Positions 9,779-17,311 of a DNA stretch of 64,000 nt are shown here, one piece after another; the stretch's first letter is position 1, and each line of letters begins with the position of its first letter. Source of the stretch: Candidatus Binatia bacterium (GTDB lineage Bacteria > Desulfobacterota > Binatia > HRBIN30 > BPIQ01); assembly GCA_026004195.1 (NCBI GenBank), contig BPIQ01000001.1, forward strand, positions 717,871-781,870, given 5' to 3'. Under the pieces are notes generated by a model. That model ran no database searches. It was not told the origin of the DNA and was given only the letters and a program-made list of their open reading frames with translations. The position numbers were made by a program, and so were the translations under genes.

Positions 9779-10666
9779 ATGGCGGCGGGCAGAACCGAGT
9801 ACCGGGTCGGTACGGCCTCGTGGACCGACCCGACGCTCCTCTCGACGGACTTCTACCCTCCCGACTGCCGAACAGCCGCGGCTCGCCTCCGCTACTACGC
9901 CTCGCTCTTTTCGACCGTCGAAGTGGATTCCACCTACTACGCGCTCCCGAGCGAGCGGAACGCACGGCTCTGGGCCGACCGCACCCCCGCCGATTTCGAT
10001 TTCAACGTGAAGGCGTTCGCATGGCTCACGGGGCACGACACGGACCCGAGGCGCCTGCCCCTCGCACTCCGGGCCGAGCTTTCCCGGGACGAACTCGCGC
10101 GCCCGAGGCTGCGCGCTCCGTCGGACAGCCACCTCCGGCGTGCCTTCGAGATGTTCCGCTCGGCGCTCGACCCCCTCCGGCGTGCGGGAAAGCTCGGCTG
10201 TCTCCTCTTGCAGTTCCCGCCGTGGTTCCGGCCCACGGACGAAAACCGGGCCTACCTGCTCCGCTGTCGATCCGAGCTGCCCGAAGACCGCATCGCCGTG
10301 GAGTTCCGGCATCCCGGATGGTTCGGCGGGAATCTCTCGTCGACGCTCCGTTTCCTCGAGCAACACGACCTCCTCTTCGTGTCCCTCGACACCCCCGGCG
10401 GCCGGGGGGTACCACCCCCTACCTGTGCCGCCACGGGCCAAGTCGCGTACGTGCGCTTCCACGGCCGGAACCGCGAGGCGTGGTTCCGGCCCGCGACGAG
10501 CGCGGCCGAACGGTTCCGGTACCTCTACGGGCAGGAAGAGCTTGCCGCCTGGGCCCGGAAGCTGCGGGACCTACCCGTCGAGAAAGCCTACGTGATCTTC
10601 AACAACTGCTACGCGGACTACGGGGTCCGGAACGCCCTTACGATGAAGCGGCTCCTCTCGGAATAG
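9779..10666 (+). CDS. DUF72 family protein
   Basis: A 295-residue protein. It begins with the family pattern YRVGTASWTDP, then VEVDSTYYALPS and FNVKAFAWLTGH, and later LLQFPPWFRP and AVEFRHPGWF. The C-terminal part has YVRFHGRN and YVIFNNCYADYGVRNA. DUF72 (YecE-like) proteins have a TIM-barrel-like fold and no firmly established reaction. Length is ordinary. No membrane segment or signal peptide is seen. It has no Shine-Dalgarno and a promoter very close to its start. It converges on the exported-paralog cluster with 23 bases between stops. Confidence 0.87.
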   Translation: MAAGRTEYRVGTASWTDPTLLSTDFYPPDCRTAAARLRYYASLFSTVEVDSTYYALPSERNARLWADRTPADFDFNVKAFAWLTGHDTDPRRLPLALRAELSRDELARPRLRAPSDSHLRRAFEMFRSALDPLRRAGKLGCLLLQFPPWFRPTDENRAYLLRCRSELPEDRIAVEFRHPGWFGGNLSSTLRFLEQHDLLFVSLDTPGGRGVPPPTCAATGQVAYVRFHGRNREAWFRPATSAAERFRYLYGQEELAAWARKLRDLPVEKAYVIFNNCYADYGVRNALTMKRLLSE

Positions 10667-10689
10667 GCTGCCGCAAGCGAACACCACCC

Positions 10690-11784
10690 TTACGGAACGA
10701 CGATCCGGTCCGCCGTCTCGCGCCGGCCTACGTGGTGGAGGTTGACCGACGCGGCCGAGCTTCCGTGGACCTCGAAAAGCCAGCCAACGAGCCCCCCGTC
10801 GACGGGACGGATACGAGTCTGTCCCGTGAGGGTTCCCGAGACGAAAACGCTGAAGATCGACCGATCCGGGTCCGTGGTGTCGAGAAAGGCCATGAACTCG
10901 AAGCCCAGACACTCCACGGGCCGGCTCGTCGAAAAACGCTGCTCGAATTCGTTGAAAACGAGGTACTGCACGTTCACGCGTGTCGGGACCTGCGTGAGAA
11001 AATTCTGCGAGCAAGGAGCAAGGACGAGCAGCGGAAAAACCTCTTCCCCGGTCACGGGGTTCTCGGCGAAGGTGAAAAAGTGGTCCGCGACGAGCACGTT
11101 CGGGCAGCCGTCGTATTCCGGGGAATCTCCTCCGAGGACGAGCTCGTTGTCGCCGTCGTTGGCTCCCGGGACGGCGCGAAAGCCGATCGCATTGTGAGAG
11201 AAGGCGTCGCCCTCGGCCACGATCGTCATCGAACCGACCAGAACGTTCCGGTCGGCGGGCGAGCCGTTCGGGTCTACGACGTAGCACTTGAGCTCCCCGA
11301 TGCCCTCGAACGGAGGAATGTCCGTTCCTGCGTTGCTCTCACCACGGGGTCCGCGACGGAAGACACCGTCGAGCGGCACGGCACTCCGCGGAAGGCCCGT
11401 CGAGACCCGCCAGGCGAAGGGCTGACGGGAGGTGAGCACCACGCGGAAGTCCGTCTCGACCCACTGTGGGAGGCAGAGATCGCGGTCGTCCGGACAGTTG
11501 AACCCGAACTCCGCCCCTGCTCCGCCCGCAAAGCAAGCCTCTCCGCTCACCGAACAACGGCCGAGGGCGTTGACGTAGAAGCACGCGAGGCGGGCAGGCG
11601 TGTCGGAGACGTTCGTGATCTGGATCAGGGTATCCATACTGCCGACGCCGGCGATCACCCCCGGGAAAGCGAGCAGCGCGGCGGGCTGGTCGGAAACCAC
11701 GGTCTCGGCCCTCGCCGACGCGGCCGCCAACAAAAAGCAGAAGCCGGCCGCGAGGTACCTCCAGCCAGCCTTCCTCGGCCCCAT
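10690..11784 (-). CDS. Exported Cys-containing protein, paralog type A (copy 2)
   Basis: A 364-residue protein from the ATG at 11784: signal peptide residues 1-26 (hydrophobic core, cleavage after ASARA), then a soluble extracytoplasmic domain. Conserved blocks shared by all four paralogs are DTLIQITNVS, CFYVN, LPQWVETDFRVVLT, GELKCYV, NAIG, LVLGG, a CP..VL..H region, APCSQNFLTQVPTRV, EFEQRFS and TGQTRIRPV. The DTLIQITNVS start resembles a beta-sandwich strand pattern; function is unknown. The frame is open upstream to GTG 11883, overlapping the type B stop, and ATG 11844 is another possible start. The signal-peptide position favours 11784. It is last in the array and has diverged from copy 1 along its whole length. 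Confidence 0.78.
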   Translation of the reverse strand: MGPRKAGWRYLAAGFCFLLAAASARAETVVSDQPAALLAFPGVIAGVGSMDTLIQITNVSDTPARLACFYVNALGRCSVSGEACFAGGAGAEFGFNCPDDRDLCLPQWVETDFRVVLTSRQPFAWRVSTGLPRSAVPLDGVFRRGPRGESNAGTDIPPFEGIGELKCYVVDPNGSPADRNVLVGSMTIVAEGDAFSHNAIGFRAVPGANDGDNELVLGGDSPEYDGCPNVLVADHFFTFAENPVTGEEVFPLLVLAPCSQNFLTQVPTRVNVQYLVFNEFEQRFSTSRPVECLGFEFMAFLDTTDPDRSIFSVFVSGTLTGQTRIRPVDGGLVGWLFEVHGSSAASVNLHHVGRRETADRIVVP

Positions 11785-11879
11785 TCCCTCCGGCGTCCGT
11801 GACGACCTGCCCCCGCCCGCGGCGTAAGCTCGATGGTTTTCCATGCGACGACTCGTTTCCGCCATGTCCCCTGCCCCCG

Positions 11880-13103
11880 TCACGGTTGGAGCTGCTCCGC
11901 CGGGATCGTGATCCGCGCGACTCCGGCCTCACCCGTGTGGTGAACGTCCCTCGCGGCGCTCGCAACGTCCCCGAGCACGAGAAGATCCCCGAAGCTATAG
12001 CCTTCCCCGACGATGATCCCGTTGTCCTGCTCCACCCAGTGTGTCTCCTGAACCATCAGAAAGCCCCCGCTGTCCGAGCCAGCGGCAGCACGAATTCGCG
12101 AGCTCATGGCGTCGCCCTCGGTCAGTGGGGGCACCGGAAAGGCCGTTGCCGTTCCGCCGGCAGCCACGAGCACCTCCGAGCCCAGCTCGCTCAACAGAAA
12201 GTTCCCCCAGCAACGGATCGTCGTCGAGACGGAAAACTGCGACTCGAAAACGTCCGTCGTGAGGAACTGGAGCGTGACACTCGTAGGCACCTGCGTCTCG
12301 AAATTCTGCGTGCACGGAACGACCGTGAGCTCGGTGAAAGCCGGGGGGAACCCGAACGGAATCGCTCCGTCCGCCGGATGGTTGACGACCCAGGTCTGCG
12401 GGCAGGCGTTGTACTCGATCGCACACGGCGCCGACTCCCCGCACTGCTCGTCCGACGTGCACACCGCCCCCTGCAGCGCTCCTCCCCCGGCACATTGCCC
12501 GCCACCCAACACCAGCGTCCCGTCCCCGTTGTTGTTCGTCCCGAGAATCCCGATCGCGTTGTACTTCGAGACGTCCCCGCTCCCGAGCGTCACCAGCGTC
12601 GCTTCCCCCTTCAGATGGTTGCCCGCCACCGGCGCCCCGCTCGCATCCACCTCCACGCACTTCAGCTCCCCCGTGAAATCCGGCACCACCGGCGGCACCA
12701 ACCCCGGGTCGAACCCCGCATCGTCGCAGTCCGAATTCCCGGGCCCGCAGGGCTCGTCCAGAGGATTCACCCGCCGCCCCTCGCTCACCGTCCAGTGCGT
12801 CGGCTGCTGCTTGGTCAGCACGATGTCGAAATCCACCTCCTGCCAAAGAGGCGGGTTGAGCGGCCCCTGGGGCTGCGTCGGATCCAGGAGCGCCCCGTTC
12901 ACGTAAAAACAGTGCGCCCGCACCAGCGAGTTCGACGTGTTCGAAATCTGGACGATCGTGTCCCGCGTCCCGTTCGCCAAAACCTTCGGAAAAACCAAAA
13001 TCGACGCGCTCCGCTCCGTCGTCACCTCCCCCAGAGCCTCCCCGCTCCACCATACCCCCACGACGAACACCAGCCCCAAAATCCCAACTCGCCTTCTACC
13101 CAT
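11880..13103 (-). CDS. Exported Cys-containing protein, paralog type B (copy 2)
   Basis: A 407-residue protein. The start at 13103 is set by the identical start and GGAGAGG site of copy 1; a longer frame to 13196 would add an implausible Arg-rich leader. The signal peptide ends near SGEALG (about residue 25). Blocks shared with type A are DTIVQISNTS, CFYVN, EVDFDIVLT, GELKCVEV, NAIG, LVLGGG, NACPQTW, PCTQNFETQVPTSV and FESQFSVS. It also has a Cys-rich insert (GAVCTSDEQCGESAPC) like motifs seen in exported proteins of Myxococcota-type bacteria. Residues up to about 238 are almost identical to copy 1; the C-terminal third is different. Function unknown, probably cell-surface or secreted. Confidence 0.78.
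   Translation of the reverse strand: MGRRRVGILGLVFVVGVWWSGEALGEVTTERSASILVFPKVLANGTRDTIVQISNTSNSLVRAHCFYVNGALLDPTQPQGPLNPPLWQEVDFDIVLTKQQPTHWTVSEGRRVNPLDEPCGPGNSDCDDAGFDPGLVPPVVPDFTGELKCVEVDASGAPVAGNHLKGEATLVTLGSGDVSKYNAIGILGTNNNGDGTLVLGGGQCAGGGALQGAVCTSDEQCGESAPCAIEYNACPQTWVVNHPADGAIPFGFPPAFTELTVVPCTQNFETQVPTSVTLQFLTTDVFESQFSVSTTIRCWGNFLLSELGSEVLVAAGGTATAFPVPPLTEGDAMSSRIRAAAGSDSGGFLMVQETHWVEQDNGIIVGEGYSFGDLLVLGDVASAARDVHHTGEAGVARITIPAEQLQP
12255..12332 (-). repeat. Short near-identical block shared by the two type B genes
   Basis: 78 bases matching 14813-14890 with one mismatch (12285 against 14843), coding the PCTQNFETQVPTSV region. It is separated from the 725-bp repeat by divergent sequence, so the similarity between the two copies is a mosaic. 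Confidence 0.85.
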
Positions 13104-13114
13104 TTGGCCTCTCC
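12390..13114 (-). repeat. 725-bp near-identical repeat, copy 2
   Basis: Matches 14999-15723 over 725 bases with a single difference (C at 12953, T at 15562, synonymous Ile). It runs from the ribosome site and start codon to about residue 238 of the type B protein, then identity stops abruptly at both ends. No inverted repeats or transposase flank it. Confidence 0.93.
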
Positions 13115-13195
13115 CTCGAGCTTTTTCGGCCGACAAGGTCGTACCCCGCCTTTCCGCCGCTCGTTCCCCCCGCCCCCGCGGACGGATCGCGGGCA

Positions 13196-13224
13196 ACCAT
13201 GTCAGCCGGCAAAGGCCTTGTCAA
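13196..13224 (-). promoter_or_regulatory. Promoter for type B copy 2 and type A copy 2
   Basis: Minus strand: TTGACA (13224-13219), 17 bases, CATGGT (13201-13196). The leader is about 85 bases and includes a GGAGAGG site. Confidence 0.5.
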
Positions 13225-13231
13225 GTGCAAA

Positions 13232-13253
13232 GGGAGCGCGAGGTACCGCTCCC
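13232..13253 (-). terminator. Weak stem-loop terminator after type A copy 1
   Basis: Minus strand: GGGAGCG, an 8-base loop, CGCTCCC, then TTTG, 17 bases after the type A copy 1 stop and just before the next promoter. The T-run is short. Confidence 0.4.
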
Positions 13254-13269
13254 GCCGGTACGGTGTCTC

Positions 13270-14415
13270 TCAGGGGATGACCCGGACGACGTCGGCTGTC
13301 TCGCGCTGACCCTGCTGGTGAAGGTTGAAAGTAACCGTACGCCCCTCGCCGTTGCCGTGGAACTCGCCCCCGATTCCCACGAGCCCACCGTTCACGGGCC
13401 GGATCCGAGTCTGTCCCGTGAGCGTCCCCGCCACCTGGACGCCGAAGACGGACCTCGAAGGATCCGACGTGTCGATCAGCCCGAGCCGGCTCAGGAAAAA
13501 GCAGTCGACGGGCTTGCTCGTCGAGAAACGCTGCTCGAACTCGTTGAAGACCAGGTACTGGACACTCAGGCGGGTCGGAACCTGCGTGAGGAAGTCTTCC
13601 GTACAAGGCGCGAGCACCAGAAAAGGCACCACGGTGCCGCCCGTCACGGGATTCGTCGCTCCGTCGAAAAAGTGGTCCATGACGAGGACGTCGGGACAGC
13701 CGTCGTACTCGCCGTCCGGGCCGCCGAGAACCAGACGCGCATCCGTGTCCACGAGGCCCGGCCGAGCCCTGTGCCCGATGGCGTTGCTTTTCACGACATC
13801 GACGCAGTCTTCCTCGTCGCCCTCGGTCCGCACGATGGTCATCTCGCCCTTGAGCACGTTCCGGTCGATCGGGTTTCCGTCGAGGTCCGTCACGTAGCAC
13901 TTGAGCTCACCCACGCCGGCCAGACCACCCTCGGCCGCGACACCGAACGGCGGAACATGGGTTCCGGAGTTGCTCTCGCCCCTCGGGCCGCGGACGAAAA
14001 AGCCGTCCACCGGCAGGTCTTCGCGGTCGAGCCCCCGCGAGGCGAGCCAGGCAAGCGGCTGCTCCGAGGTGAGAAAAACCCGGAAATCCGTCTCGACCCA
14101 CTGCGGGAGGCAGGCGTCGGAGGAAAGCGGGCAGTCGAGGGAAAACCGGGGGTCGCCCGAAGCGGGAAAACAAGGGGCACCCGACACCGAGCACTTGCCC
14201 ACGGCGTTCACGTAGAAGCACTTGGCTGCCACGGGCTCGTTCGACGTGTTGCTCAACTGGATCACGGTATCGAGCTCCGTCGACCCACCGCGCGCTACGA
14301 TCACCCCCGGGTAGACCAGAAGTGCAGCCGGCTGGTCCGTAACGACCGTCTGGGCCCTCCCGAGGGACGCCGTCGCCAGAACTGCCACCGCCACCATCGT
14401 CCAGTTCGTTCTCAT
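13270..14415 (-). CDS. Exported Cys-containing protein, paralog type A (copy 1)
   Basis: A 381-residue protein with a strong AGGAGGAGG site before the ATG at 14415. The signal peptide (about 1-21, ending SLGRA) precedes QTVVTDQPAALLVYPGVIV, matching the mature start of copy 2. The same blocks follow in order: DTVIQLSNTS, CFYVN, LPQWVETDFRVFLT, a GPRGESN segment, GELKCYVTD, NAIG, LVLGGPDGEYDGCPDVLVMDH, APCTEDFLTQVPTRL, EFEQRFSTS and TGQTRIRPVNGG. Several cysteines align between copies, suggesting disulfides in an extracytoplasmic setting. It lies 43 bases after type B copy 1 and shares its promoter. Function unknown; copy 2 is its closest relative in the window. Confidence 0.8.
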   Translation of the reverse strand: MRTNWTMVAVAVLATASLGRAQTVVTDQPAALLVYPGVIVARGGSTELDTVIQLSNTSNEPVAAKCFYVNAVGKCSVSGAPCFPASGDPRFSLDCPLSSDACLPQWVETDFRVFLTSEQPLAWLASRGLDREDLPVDGFFVRGPRGESNSGTHVPPFGVAAEGGLAGVGELKCYVTDLDGNPIDRNVLKGEMTIVRTEGDEEDCVDVVKSNAIGHRARPGLVDTDARLVLGGPDGEYDGCPDVLVMDHFFDGATNPVTGGTVVPFLVLAPCTEDFLTQVPTRLSVQYLVFNEFEQRFSTSKPVDCFFLSRLGLIDTSDPSRSVFGVQVAGTLTGQTRIRPVNGGLVGIGGEFHGNGEGRTVTFNLHQQGQRETADVVRVIP

Positions 14416-14458
14416 AACCTCCTCCTTACCTCGCACCGCCCGTGCACCCACGCCTGCC

Positions 14459-15712
14459 TCACGGGACCAACTGTTCCGCGGGGATCGTGATCAGATCCGG
14501 CGTGGGACGAAGGCCCTCGTGGTGCGGGTTGAAGGCCGCTGCCGCCATTTCGTCCGCGTCGATCTCGAACGGGTTCACGAGCCCCCCCGAAGGACTCCCG
14601 ACACCCTTCAGGTGAAACTCTTCCGCCACCAGAGCCACCCCGAACGGGGTCCCCGCAGCCGGCCGAATTTTCGTCTTGAGAAACATCGTGCCCTGCGGAT
14701 CGGGTAGCCCCGTTCCGGAGAAGGTGAGCGCCGAAGCGCCCGTTTCGTGGAGGAAAAAGCTACCCCAGCACGTCACGGTCGTGGAGACGGAAAACTGGGA
14801 TTCGAACTCGTTCGTCGTGAGGAACTGGAGCGTGACACTCGTCGGCACCTGCGTCTCGAAATTCTGCGTGCACGGAACGACCGTGAGCTCCGTGAACACC
14901 TCGGAGGAATTGCCGTTCCCCCCGCCGGATCCGCTTCCGTTTGCCAGCATGTCCTCGAGAGCGAGGCTCGGCGAGCCGTCGGCCTGGTGGTTCACGATCC
15001 AGGTCTGCGGGCAGGCGTTGTACTCGATCGCACACGGCGCCGACTCCCCGCACTGCTCGTCCGACGTGCACACCGCCCCCTGCAGCGCTCCTCCCCCGGC
15101 ACATTGCCCGCCACCCAACACCAGCGTCCCGTCCCCGTTGTTGTTCGTCCCGAGAATCCCGATCGCGTTGTACTTCGAGACGTCCCCGCTCCCGAGCGTC
15201 ACCAGCGTCGCTTCCCCCTTCAGATGGTTGCCCGCCACCGGCGCCCCGCTCGCATCCACCTCCACGCACTTCAGCTCCCCCGTGAAATCCGGCACCACCG
15301 GCGGCACCAACCCCGGGTCGAACCCCGCATCGTCGCAGTCCGAATTCCCGGGCCCGCAGGGCTCGTCCAGAGGATTCACCCGCCGCCCCTCGCTCACCGT
15401 CCAGTGCGTCGGCTGCTGCTTGGTCAGCACGATGTCGAAATCCACCTCCTGCCAAAGAGGCGGGTTGAGCGGCCCCTGGGGCTGCGTCGGATCCAGGAGC
15501 GCCCCGTTCACGTAAAAACAGTGCGCCCGCACCAGCGAGTTCGACGTGTTCGAAATCTGGATGATCGTGTCCCGCGTCCCGTTCGCCAAAACCTTCGGAA
15601 AAACCAAAATCGACGCGCTCCGCTCCGTCGTCACCTCCCCCAGAGCCTCCCCGCTCCACCATACCCCCACGACGAACACCAGCCCCAAAATCCCAACTCG
15701 CCTTCTACCCAT
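14459..15712 (-). CDS. Exported Cys-containing protein, paralog type B (copy 1)
   Basis: A 417-residue protein, first gene of the array, with a GGAGAGG site 5 bases before the ATG. Signal peptide residues 1-25 (MGRRRVGILGLVFVVGVWW core) are the same as in copy 2. The mature protein carries the family blocks DTIIQISNTS, CFYVN, EVDFDIVLT, GELKCVEV and LVLGGG, the CTSDEQCGESAPC insert, NACPQTW, PCTQNFETQVPTSV and FESQFSVS. After residue 238 it has a Gly/Asn/Ser linker (NGSGSGGGNGNSS) absent from copy 2, and a largely different C-terminal third. Codons in the shared part favour G endings (GGG, GTG, GCG, ACG). Function unknown. Confidence 0.8.
   Translation of the reverse strand: MGRRRVGILGLVFVVGVWWSGEALGEVTTERSASILVFPKVLANGTRDTIIQISNTSNSLVRAHCFYVNGALLDPTQPQGPLNPPLWQEVDFDIVLTKQQPTHWTVSEGRRVNPLDEPCGPGNSDCDDAGFDPGLVPPVVPDFTGELKCVEVDASGAPVAGNHLKGEATLVTLGSGDVSKYNAIGILGTNNNGDGTLVLGGGQCAGGGALQGAVCTSDEQCGESAPCAIEYNACPQTWIVNHQADGSPSLALEDMLANGSGSGGGNGNSSEVFTELTVVPCTQNFETQVPTSVTLQFLTTNEFESQFSVSTTVTCWGSFFLHETGASALTFSGTGLPDPQGTMFLKTKIRPAAGTPFGVALVAEEFHLKGVGSPSGGLVNPFEIDADEMAAAAFNPHHEGLRPTPDLITIPAEQLVP
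14813..14890 (-). repeat. Short near-identical block shared by the two type B genes, partner copy
   Basis: Partner of 12255-12332; one mismatch in 78 bases. Confidence 0.85.
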
Positions 15713-15723
15713 TTGGCCTCTCC
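14999..15723 (-). repeat. 725-bp near-identical repeat, copy 1
   Basis: Partner of 12390-13114 at an offset of 2609 bases. It includes the start codon and ribosome site, but not the promoter, of type B copy 1. Confidence 0.93.
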
Positions 15724-15782
15724 TTTTCCCAACCTAAAGCAGGATTCGCACCCATACCGGCTCCGACAGCCTCGGACGGCCA

Positions 15783-15807
15783 GTCCCGGAACCCGATCGT
15801 CCGGGAC
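15783..15807 (-). other. 5'-terminal stem-loop in the exported-paralog mRNA leader
   Basis: A perfect 8-bp stem (GTCCCGGA with TCCGGGAC) and 9-base loop. It starts at or next to the predicted transcription start, 7 bases below the -10 box. Such 5'-end hairpins are known to protect mRNA from decay (for example in ompA). Confidence 0.55.
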
Positions 15808-15813
15808 GCGCGA

Positions 15814-15841
15814 AGTCTAACGAGAAAACGAGGTTTGTCAA
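15814..15841 (-). promoter_or_regulatory. Promoter for the exported-paralog array
   Basis: Minus strand: TTGACA (15841-15836), 16 bases, TAGACT (15819-15814), predicting a leader of about 94 bases before the type B copy 1 ATG. Confidence 0.65.
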
Positions 15842-15894
15842 GGAAATGACGGGACCCCGTGGCGGATTTTTCGGCACTTGCTAATCTCGGAGTC

Positions 15895-17311
15895 ATGCCA
15901 AATCGACCGCCGAGGCCGTCCGGATCCGCCCTTTTCACCGACCTCTACGAGCTCACCATGGCCGCGGTGTATTTCGAGCGCGGCATGCACGAGCCCGCCA
16001 CCTTCAGCTTCTTCGTGCGGGCCTATCCACCGAACCGAGGCTATTTCGTCGCGGCGGGGCTCGAAGAAGTGCTCGAATACCTCGAGACCTTCCGGTTCAC
16101 CAGGGAAGAGCTCGCCTACCTCCGGTCGACGGGCCTTTTTTCGCGGGACTTCCTCCGCTTTCTCGCCTCCGTGCGCTTCGAGGGGGACGTTTTCGCGATG
16201 CCCGAAGGCACGGTGTTCTTCGTCGACGAACCCGTTCTCGAGATCACGGCACCCTTGATCCAGGGCCAGATCGTCGAAACTTTCGTGATCAACCAGCTCC
16301 ACCTCGGCACACTTCTGGCCACCAAAGCGGCCCGCTGCGTCGACGCGGCCCGAGGGCGCCGCGTCGTGGACTTCTCGCCCCGGAGGACACACGGCACGGA
16401 CGCCGGGATGAAAGCGGCTCGGGCGAGCTATCTCGCCGGAGCGGCCGGAACCAGCAACGTGCTCGCCGGCAAGCGGTGGGGCATCCCCGTCTTCGGGACG
16501 ATGGCCCATTCTTTCGTGGAGGTCTTCCCTCACGAAGTGGAAGCGTTCCGGGCTTTTTCCGAGGTCTTCCCGGACGCGAGCGTCTTTCTCGTCGACACGT
16601 ACGACACGCTCGCCGGCGTCCGCTCGGCCGTCCGGGTCGCCCGCTCGATGGCCGAGCGAGGCAAGCTACCACGCGCGATCCGGCTCGACAGCGGGAACCT
16701 GGAAGAGCTCTCCCGTGAGGCCCGCCGCATCCTCGACGAGAACGGACTCGAAAACGTCCAGATCTTCGCGAGCGGCGGCCTCGACGAGTTCGAAATCGAC
16801 CGGCTCGTCTCCTCGGGCGCGCCGATCGACGGCTTCGGAGTGGGCACCCGACTCGGGGTCTCCGAAGACGCTCCGGCCCTCGATTGCGCTTACAAGCTCG
16901 TCGAATACGCCGGCAGCGGGAGAGTCAAGCTGAGCGCGAAAAAAACGACCTGGGTGGGACGCAAACAGGTCTGGCGGCTCCGCGAGGGCGGCCGGGCCGT
17001 CACGGACTGCCTCGCCCTCCGGGACGAGCCGCGTGCGGAGATCGCGTCGTACCTGCAGGTTCCCGAGGAGCGGCTCGAACCCCTGCTCCGGCCCTTCGTC
17101 CGCGGCGGGCGCCGGGTCGAGCCCCCCGCGCCGCTTTCGGCGTCGCGGGAGCGTTTTCGGGAGGAACTCGCACGCGTCTCCTCTCGAGTATCGCCGTATT
17201 CGGGAGCCCGCCCTCTACCCGGTACGGATTTCTCCCGCACTCGAGGCCGCGCAGAAGCGGGCTACCGAGGAGGCGCGTGCCCGCACCTCGTCCGGCCTCC
17301 CGGCACCCTAG
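15895..17311 (+). CDS. pncB: Nicotinate phosphoribosyltransferase, apparent frameshift near the 3' end
   Basis: Converts nicotinate and PRPP to nicotinate mononucleotide in NAD salvage. Residues from the ATG at 15895 follow the family: FTDLYELTMAAVYFERG, the DFSPRRTHGTDAGMKAARASY segment (the RRTHG loop), GTMAHSFVEVFP with its conserved His, RLDSGNL, and FGVGTRLGVS. The frame is correct to about 17184. The expected C-terminus (LEYRRIREPALYPVRIS) continues in the next frame and ends in a TAG at 17309-17311, interlocked with the dnaB stop. One extra base in the TC-rich tract 17179-17187 would explain this. It is either a sequencing error or a recent lesion. A GTG at 15859 is an alternative start; TAATCT ends 7 bases before the ATG. 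Confidence 0.85.

Follow-up and report, generated by a model that had tools for sequence, protein, structure and literature searches.

The 64,000-nucleotide stretch of Candidatus Binatia bacterium DNA analysed here (the window) carries two obligate B-then-A gene cassettes, whose exported products are paralogues with two predicted β-sandwich domains per chain. We tentatively propose, with a little less than even confidence, that A and B form a four-sandwich extracellular heteromer that binds a ligand or serves as a scaffold. The four genes are consecutive on the minus strand and are transcribed in the order B1 (14459-15712, 417 residues), A1 (13270-14415, 381 residues), B2 (11880-13103, 407 residues) and A2 (10690-11784, 364 residues). 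They encode cysteine-containing homologues of 364-417 residues, each of which starts with a signal-peptide-like stretch. No membrane anchor and no lipobox were seen in A or B by inspection, and the family alignments contain many conserved cysteines in both. An earlier reading made from the letters of the DNA (the sequence-only reading) had described the genes, their lengths, their export signals and the alternation of two subtypes, all of which were borne out. The sequence blocks that it quoted as shared are present in all four proteins, except that the C-terminus of B2 reads SRIRA instead of TxIRP.

All 15 genomes of the window's own order carry the family, and none of 43 sampled genomes from other orders of the class does; the order is probably the HRbin30 one (Candidatus Binatia), which is among the seven orders of Binatota (PMC8262859). 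Pairing was counted in 45 cluster regions from eight genomes of the order, where the B-A alternation goes far beyond chance. Each of the 53 B genes has an A gene directly downstream in the same orientation, and none stands alone. A gene of the B type precedes 53 of the 64 A genes; another eight are preceded by an A and three by no family gene, one of these three loci being close to a contig end. A tree built from 70 family members resolves A and B as distinct, well-separated clades whose substructure is mirrored, and comparison of the two profiles indicates homology over the whole length (E = 1.5e-65 for domain 1 and 3.1e-54 for domain 2). The distance matrices of A and B correlate with an r value of 0.74 over the 53 neighboring pairs, a value reached by none of 2,000 within-genome partner shuffles (mean 0.14, maximum 0.38), a procedure that preserves species relationships. 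Moreover, the nearest relatives of A and B in other genomes belong to one cassette in 75% of cases, against ~16% by chance. As genomic patterns, the mirrored trees and pair statistics describe co-inheritance and are no proof of A-B contact.

Promoter placement follows the same two-gene unit. When the 200 bp upstream of each gene are considered, an exact TTGACA hexamer precedes 25 of 35 leading B genes, 8 of 18 internal ones and none of the 53 A genes that follow a B, the expectation being 0.02 per sequence. Many of the sites upstream of B also show a good −10 box with the usual spacer length, as does ATATAAGGC at locus I, one of the conserved loci described below. Within the window, the promoter-like site before B1 (TTGACA-16-TAGACT, 15814-15841, minus strand) scores 10/12, is the only sigma-70-like site within 10400-16000 and has the same placement as the sites before leading B genes elsewhere. 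A TTGACA read from the sequence is also present before B2 (13196-13224, minus strand), with a poor −10 box. The proposal that each B-A pair has its own TTGACA promoter thus holds for B1 and as a rule across the family, and is weak for B2 in the window. Since TTGACA is found before B and never before an A that follows B, the B-A cassette is the likely transcription unit.

Four A/B loci (I-IV) are kept in place across the order. Locus I is mostly B-A-B-A and lies beside an aminotransferase and a trmFO-type gene; locus II is B-A, in some cases B-A-A, beside an FG-GAP lipoprotein and ATP-binding cassette exporters; locus III is B-A-B-A between a stalk protein and a response regulator; and locus IV is B-A beside a UDP-sugar dehydrogenase and a PD40 protein. 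The window cassettes cluster in the tree with one locus I cassette of the same genome, and the array therefore looks like a lineage-specific copy that was later duplicated as a unit. Collectively, the invariant B-A order, the mirrored trees, the promoter placement and the syntenic loci support what had been suspected from the window, namely duplication of a two-gene cassette rather than expansion of a single gene, and they argue strongly for A and B as partners. The sequence-only reading had also asked whether A and B co-occur in other genomes; homologues living mostly alone were not seen, the separate cases being the three A loci without a B. This evidence, all of it genomic, supports a partnership in which A and B may be in physical contact. 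The fixed two-gene grammar yields a clear, testable prediction: A binds B.

Scans of the four proteins against Pfam, NCBIfam and PHROGs gave no match, and a sequence search of the PDB with A1 gave no relative. Judged by such scans, the A/B family is unclassified and has no existing Pfam or NCBIfam model, one case of the annotation gap left by large order-wide families that lack such models. When 30 A and 26 B proteins were scanned against Pfam, a few members gave weak matches to EB, WAP or defensin-like models that probably come from cysteine-rich inserts, and PF07100 (ASRT) was not among the matches at E≤1. Structures were predicted with AlphaFold 2 (AF2) without templates and compared with solved structures by Foldseek and VIA alignment. 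The models of A (predicted local distance difference test score 85.4, predicted template-modelling (TM) score 0.85) and B (79.2 and 0.81, respectively) both consist of two β domains. Among solved structures, Thermotoga maritima TM1070 (PDB 1nc7; ASRT, ASRAH superfamily) ranked first in Foldseek with the model of A, and after VIA alignment it ranked first with both models. Domain 1 of B1 (residues 31-188; 15149-15622, minus strand) aligned with a Z score of 13.6 and a root-mean-square deviation (RMSD) of 1.9 Å over 106 residues, and domain 2 of A1 (residues 238-371; 13303-13704, minus strand) with a Z score of 12.2 and an RMSD of 4.1 Å over 113 residues; the next unrelated entries scored 6.4 and 5.7, respectively. 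The TM1070-type eight-stranded β-sandwich is present in the predicted models of both of these domains. Since A and B are homologous over their whole length, both domains of both proteins are probably TM1070-like, which would give two sandwich domains per chain. Separate structure prediction of A and B, to which the sequence-only reading had looked, thus found a known domain at the level of the fold (TM1070/ASRAH) and none by sequence. In a viral structure library, only matches with low TM scores were obtained, many of them to jelly-roll capsid proteins.

De Souza et al. (PMC2739507) characterise ASRAH domains by this sandwich, by an Asn in strand 2 and by a Trp in strand 1. Sugar binding and tetramers have been proposed for them, their secreted forms occur as dyads or tetrads with two or four domains, and TM1070 itself is a tetramer with a ligand cleft (PMC2739507). 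The A/B proteins share with TM1070 the eight-stranded sandwich and, in domain 1, the Asn at the end of strand 2 (the last residue of the strand by DSSP in the models), which is invariant in B (N55) and conserved in at least 90% of A (N56). They differ from it in being exported, in having two domains per chain and many conserved cysteines, and in showing no detectable profile similarity. In export and in predicted domain number they resemble the secreted ASRAH dyads, that is, actinobacterial lipoproteins (PMC2739507) and the tandem PF07100 proteins of other Binatia; unlike the latter, A and B have no PF07100 match and occur in two-gene pairs. Tandem PF07100 proteins (L126:601-1848 and L127:640-1851) were seen in four Binatia genomes, one of which (G013) is in the same order, and the L126 protein has a lipobox-like Cys.

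Paired genes with their own promoter suggest a dedicated machine made of two proteins, which probably acts outside the cell as a ligand-binding or structural complex. In the proposed mechanism, B and A would be made together from one promoter at the cassette start and exported, and would then assemble beyond the cytoplasm as an A-B heteromer that has four sandwiches, as many as the TM1070 homotetramer. The ligand of the sandwich clefts would be a small molecule, a glycan or another member of a surface assembly, and the several cassette loci kept across the order may encode units that differ in specificity. The earlier suggestion that the two proteins are subunits of a surface structure is likewise tentative. 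The family also suggests that the ASRAH-type sandwich, to date seen mostly in single intracellular proteins, was used by an uncultured lineage in a paired extracellular system.

Several observations weigh against the ligand-binding heteromer and its kinship to ASRAH. In domain 2, an invariant Cys takes the place of the ASRAH Asn. The strand-1 Trp is replaced by an aliphatic residue (a position judged by eye), with F/Y/W two residues later, and the pocket His and Cys of ASRT correspond to Asp and Gln/Glu/Arg in A/B. The ligand-contact signature SHExxChhN is absent from A and B, which have a DTxIQISN-type strand instead. Comparison of A/B with ASRT profiles by hhalign gave probabilities of <1% and scores no better than those of column-shuffled controls, and the window's genome (G000) contains no PF07100 match at E≤0.001. 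No sugar-enzyme operon is common to the A/B clusters, and the eight A genes that follow an A, together with the three A loci without a preceding B, depart from the strict pair. With the Asn present, the Trp and the His/Cys signature absent and no profile link, the models point to a likeness of fold and not to membership of ASRAH. Homology to ASRT is accordingly not claimed from sequence; nor is an internal duplication, as the profile link between the two domains of one chain was no better than that of shuffled controls.

It is possible, if on balance doubtful, that A and B are not ligand binders but structural units from which a surface layer, matrix or appendage is built, made in abundance from strong promoters. 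The near-consensus TTGACA promoters at cassette starts, the many copies and the many conserved cysteines would suit such a role. So would codon usage, which places the A/B genes at the 74th-83rd percentile of window open reading frames when scored against rpoB, rpoC and tuf, although this ranking is crude, being based on 42 reading frames with the reference genes lying inside the window. Related proteins of a third subfamily, C, carry long Thr/Pro stalks, and stalk and dockerin proteins are neighbors of A/B genes. At locus III, an exported Thr/Ser/Pro-rich stalk protein lies just upstream in seven of eight sampled regions, in most cases with dockerin-like repeats, the dockerin Pfam score being above the cut-off in one of the three with a match (L097); at locus IV, the PD40 protein carries a dockerin in L098. 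Thus, two of the four conserved loci adjoin dockerin-type secreted proteins, and the order encodes both halves of cohesin-dockerin surface assemblies (cohesins in 14 of 15 genomes, dockerins in all 15). In contrast to the components of such assemblies, A and B members had neither cohesin (PF00963) nor dockerin (PF00404) among their Pfam matches, and neighbors of this kind were not seen beside the window array itself. The extracellular setting of loci III and IV fits a surface assembly and also speaks for the exported A-B heteromer, as context only. Against the building-block role, no anchor, sortase or polymerisation motif was noticed in A or B, and the maintenance of distinct loci across the order suggests specialised rather than interchangeable parts. 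A broader form of the heteromer model is decidedly speculative: order-wide obligate B-A heteromers with an ASRAH-like fold, each a four-sandwich receptor or scaffold unit outside the cell, would have their own specificities, be linked to cohesin-dockerin stalks and be tuned by domain-wise gene conversion, and would amount to a new kind of two-component system for extracellular binding.

Conserved exported stalk proteins of ~800-930 residues directly upstream of B-A arrays were observed at L061:4223-6610, L086:12846-15455, L097:10965-13523 and L104:12838-15639. The window's own genome also contains a cluster of cohesin-domain matches (G000:C2:132286-135871).

A single-domain response regulator (L092:10543-11010 and orthologues) is found directly downstream of the locus III B-A-B-A arrays in seven genomes, on the same strand and, where measured, ~30-160 bp after the array. 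This conserved neighbor would agree with A-B acting as a periplasmic or surface sensor that binds a ligand and feeds a signalling system, as proposed for ASRT. Such a role is unlikely: the regulator occurs at one locus type only and not near the window array, and no histidine kinase or receptor was noticed at locus III.

The evidence for partnership being genomic throughout, and the divergent C-type proteins also occurring in pairs, the pairing might instead be left over from an old tandem duplication and persist through linkage, without functional interaction between A and B. We regard this as quite improbable: if linkage were the only cause, some pairs should have come apart, whereas each of the 53 B genes, from genomes of four families of the order, stands before an A and none occurs by itself.

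Parts of the two window cassettes are recent copies and others are not. In B1 and B2, a 748-bp tract is 99.2% identical (14976-15723 in B1 and 12367-13114 in B2, both on the minus strand); it runs from 11 bp before the ATG to approximately residue 246 and covers the signal peptide and domain 1. Their first 246 residues are 98.8% identical (98.4% at third codon positions); beyond the tract, the identity is 53% (52% at third positions). A1 and A2 are 61% identical, with 48% at third positions, and a shorter B1/B2 block of high identity lies in domain 2, near 14890-14771. The sharp edge after domain 1 indicates that the tract arose by a recent conversion-like transfer between two old copies. The tract, the second short block and the lineage-specific extra array might recall a locus for antigen or phage-receptor variation, in which conversion between copies changes surface proteins, but this is very improbable: unlike in fast-turnover variation systems, synteny of the loci is kept throughout the order and A and B of a pair evolve in step, and conversion here makes domain 1 more alike rather than more varied.

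The window's genome (3.6 Mb) has ~20 family genes at six places. Three of these (L058:8711-10068, L058:10180-11347 and L061:9579-10683) are split by frame changes, none at a long homopolymer, and are pseudogenes or assembly errors. Named relatives of the family are mostly Candidatus Binatia, Deltaproteobacteria metagenome-assembled genomes and HRbin30. A search of one B protein against phages and of one A protein against plasmids gave no match, so neither origin is favored. In relatives, C genes lie in adjacent pairs, in which usually one product is short and the other bears a long Thr/Pro stalk; the window's genome yielded a single C gene. A C-type profile matched nothing in 296 further genomes from the phylum, where a limited set of first-look candidates was scored and distant relatives may be missed; three marginal matches in other Binatia orders (E = 5e-4 to 1e-3) are not claimed as relatives. 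C-type pairs of a short secreted protein and a long Thr/Pro-stalk protein lie at L090:7096-8475, L095:7590-9215 and L110:7824-9377, and some of the stalk proteins have a hydrophobic N-terminal segment ahead of the stalk. Finally, a 4155-bp contig labelled Patescibacteria (L056, JAJDCE010000006.1) carries B-A genes close to those of the Binatia contig L055 and is probably mis-binned.

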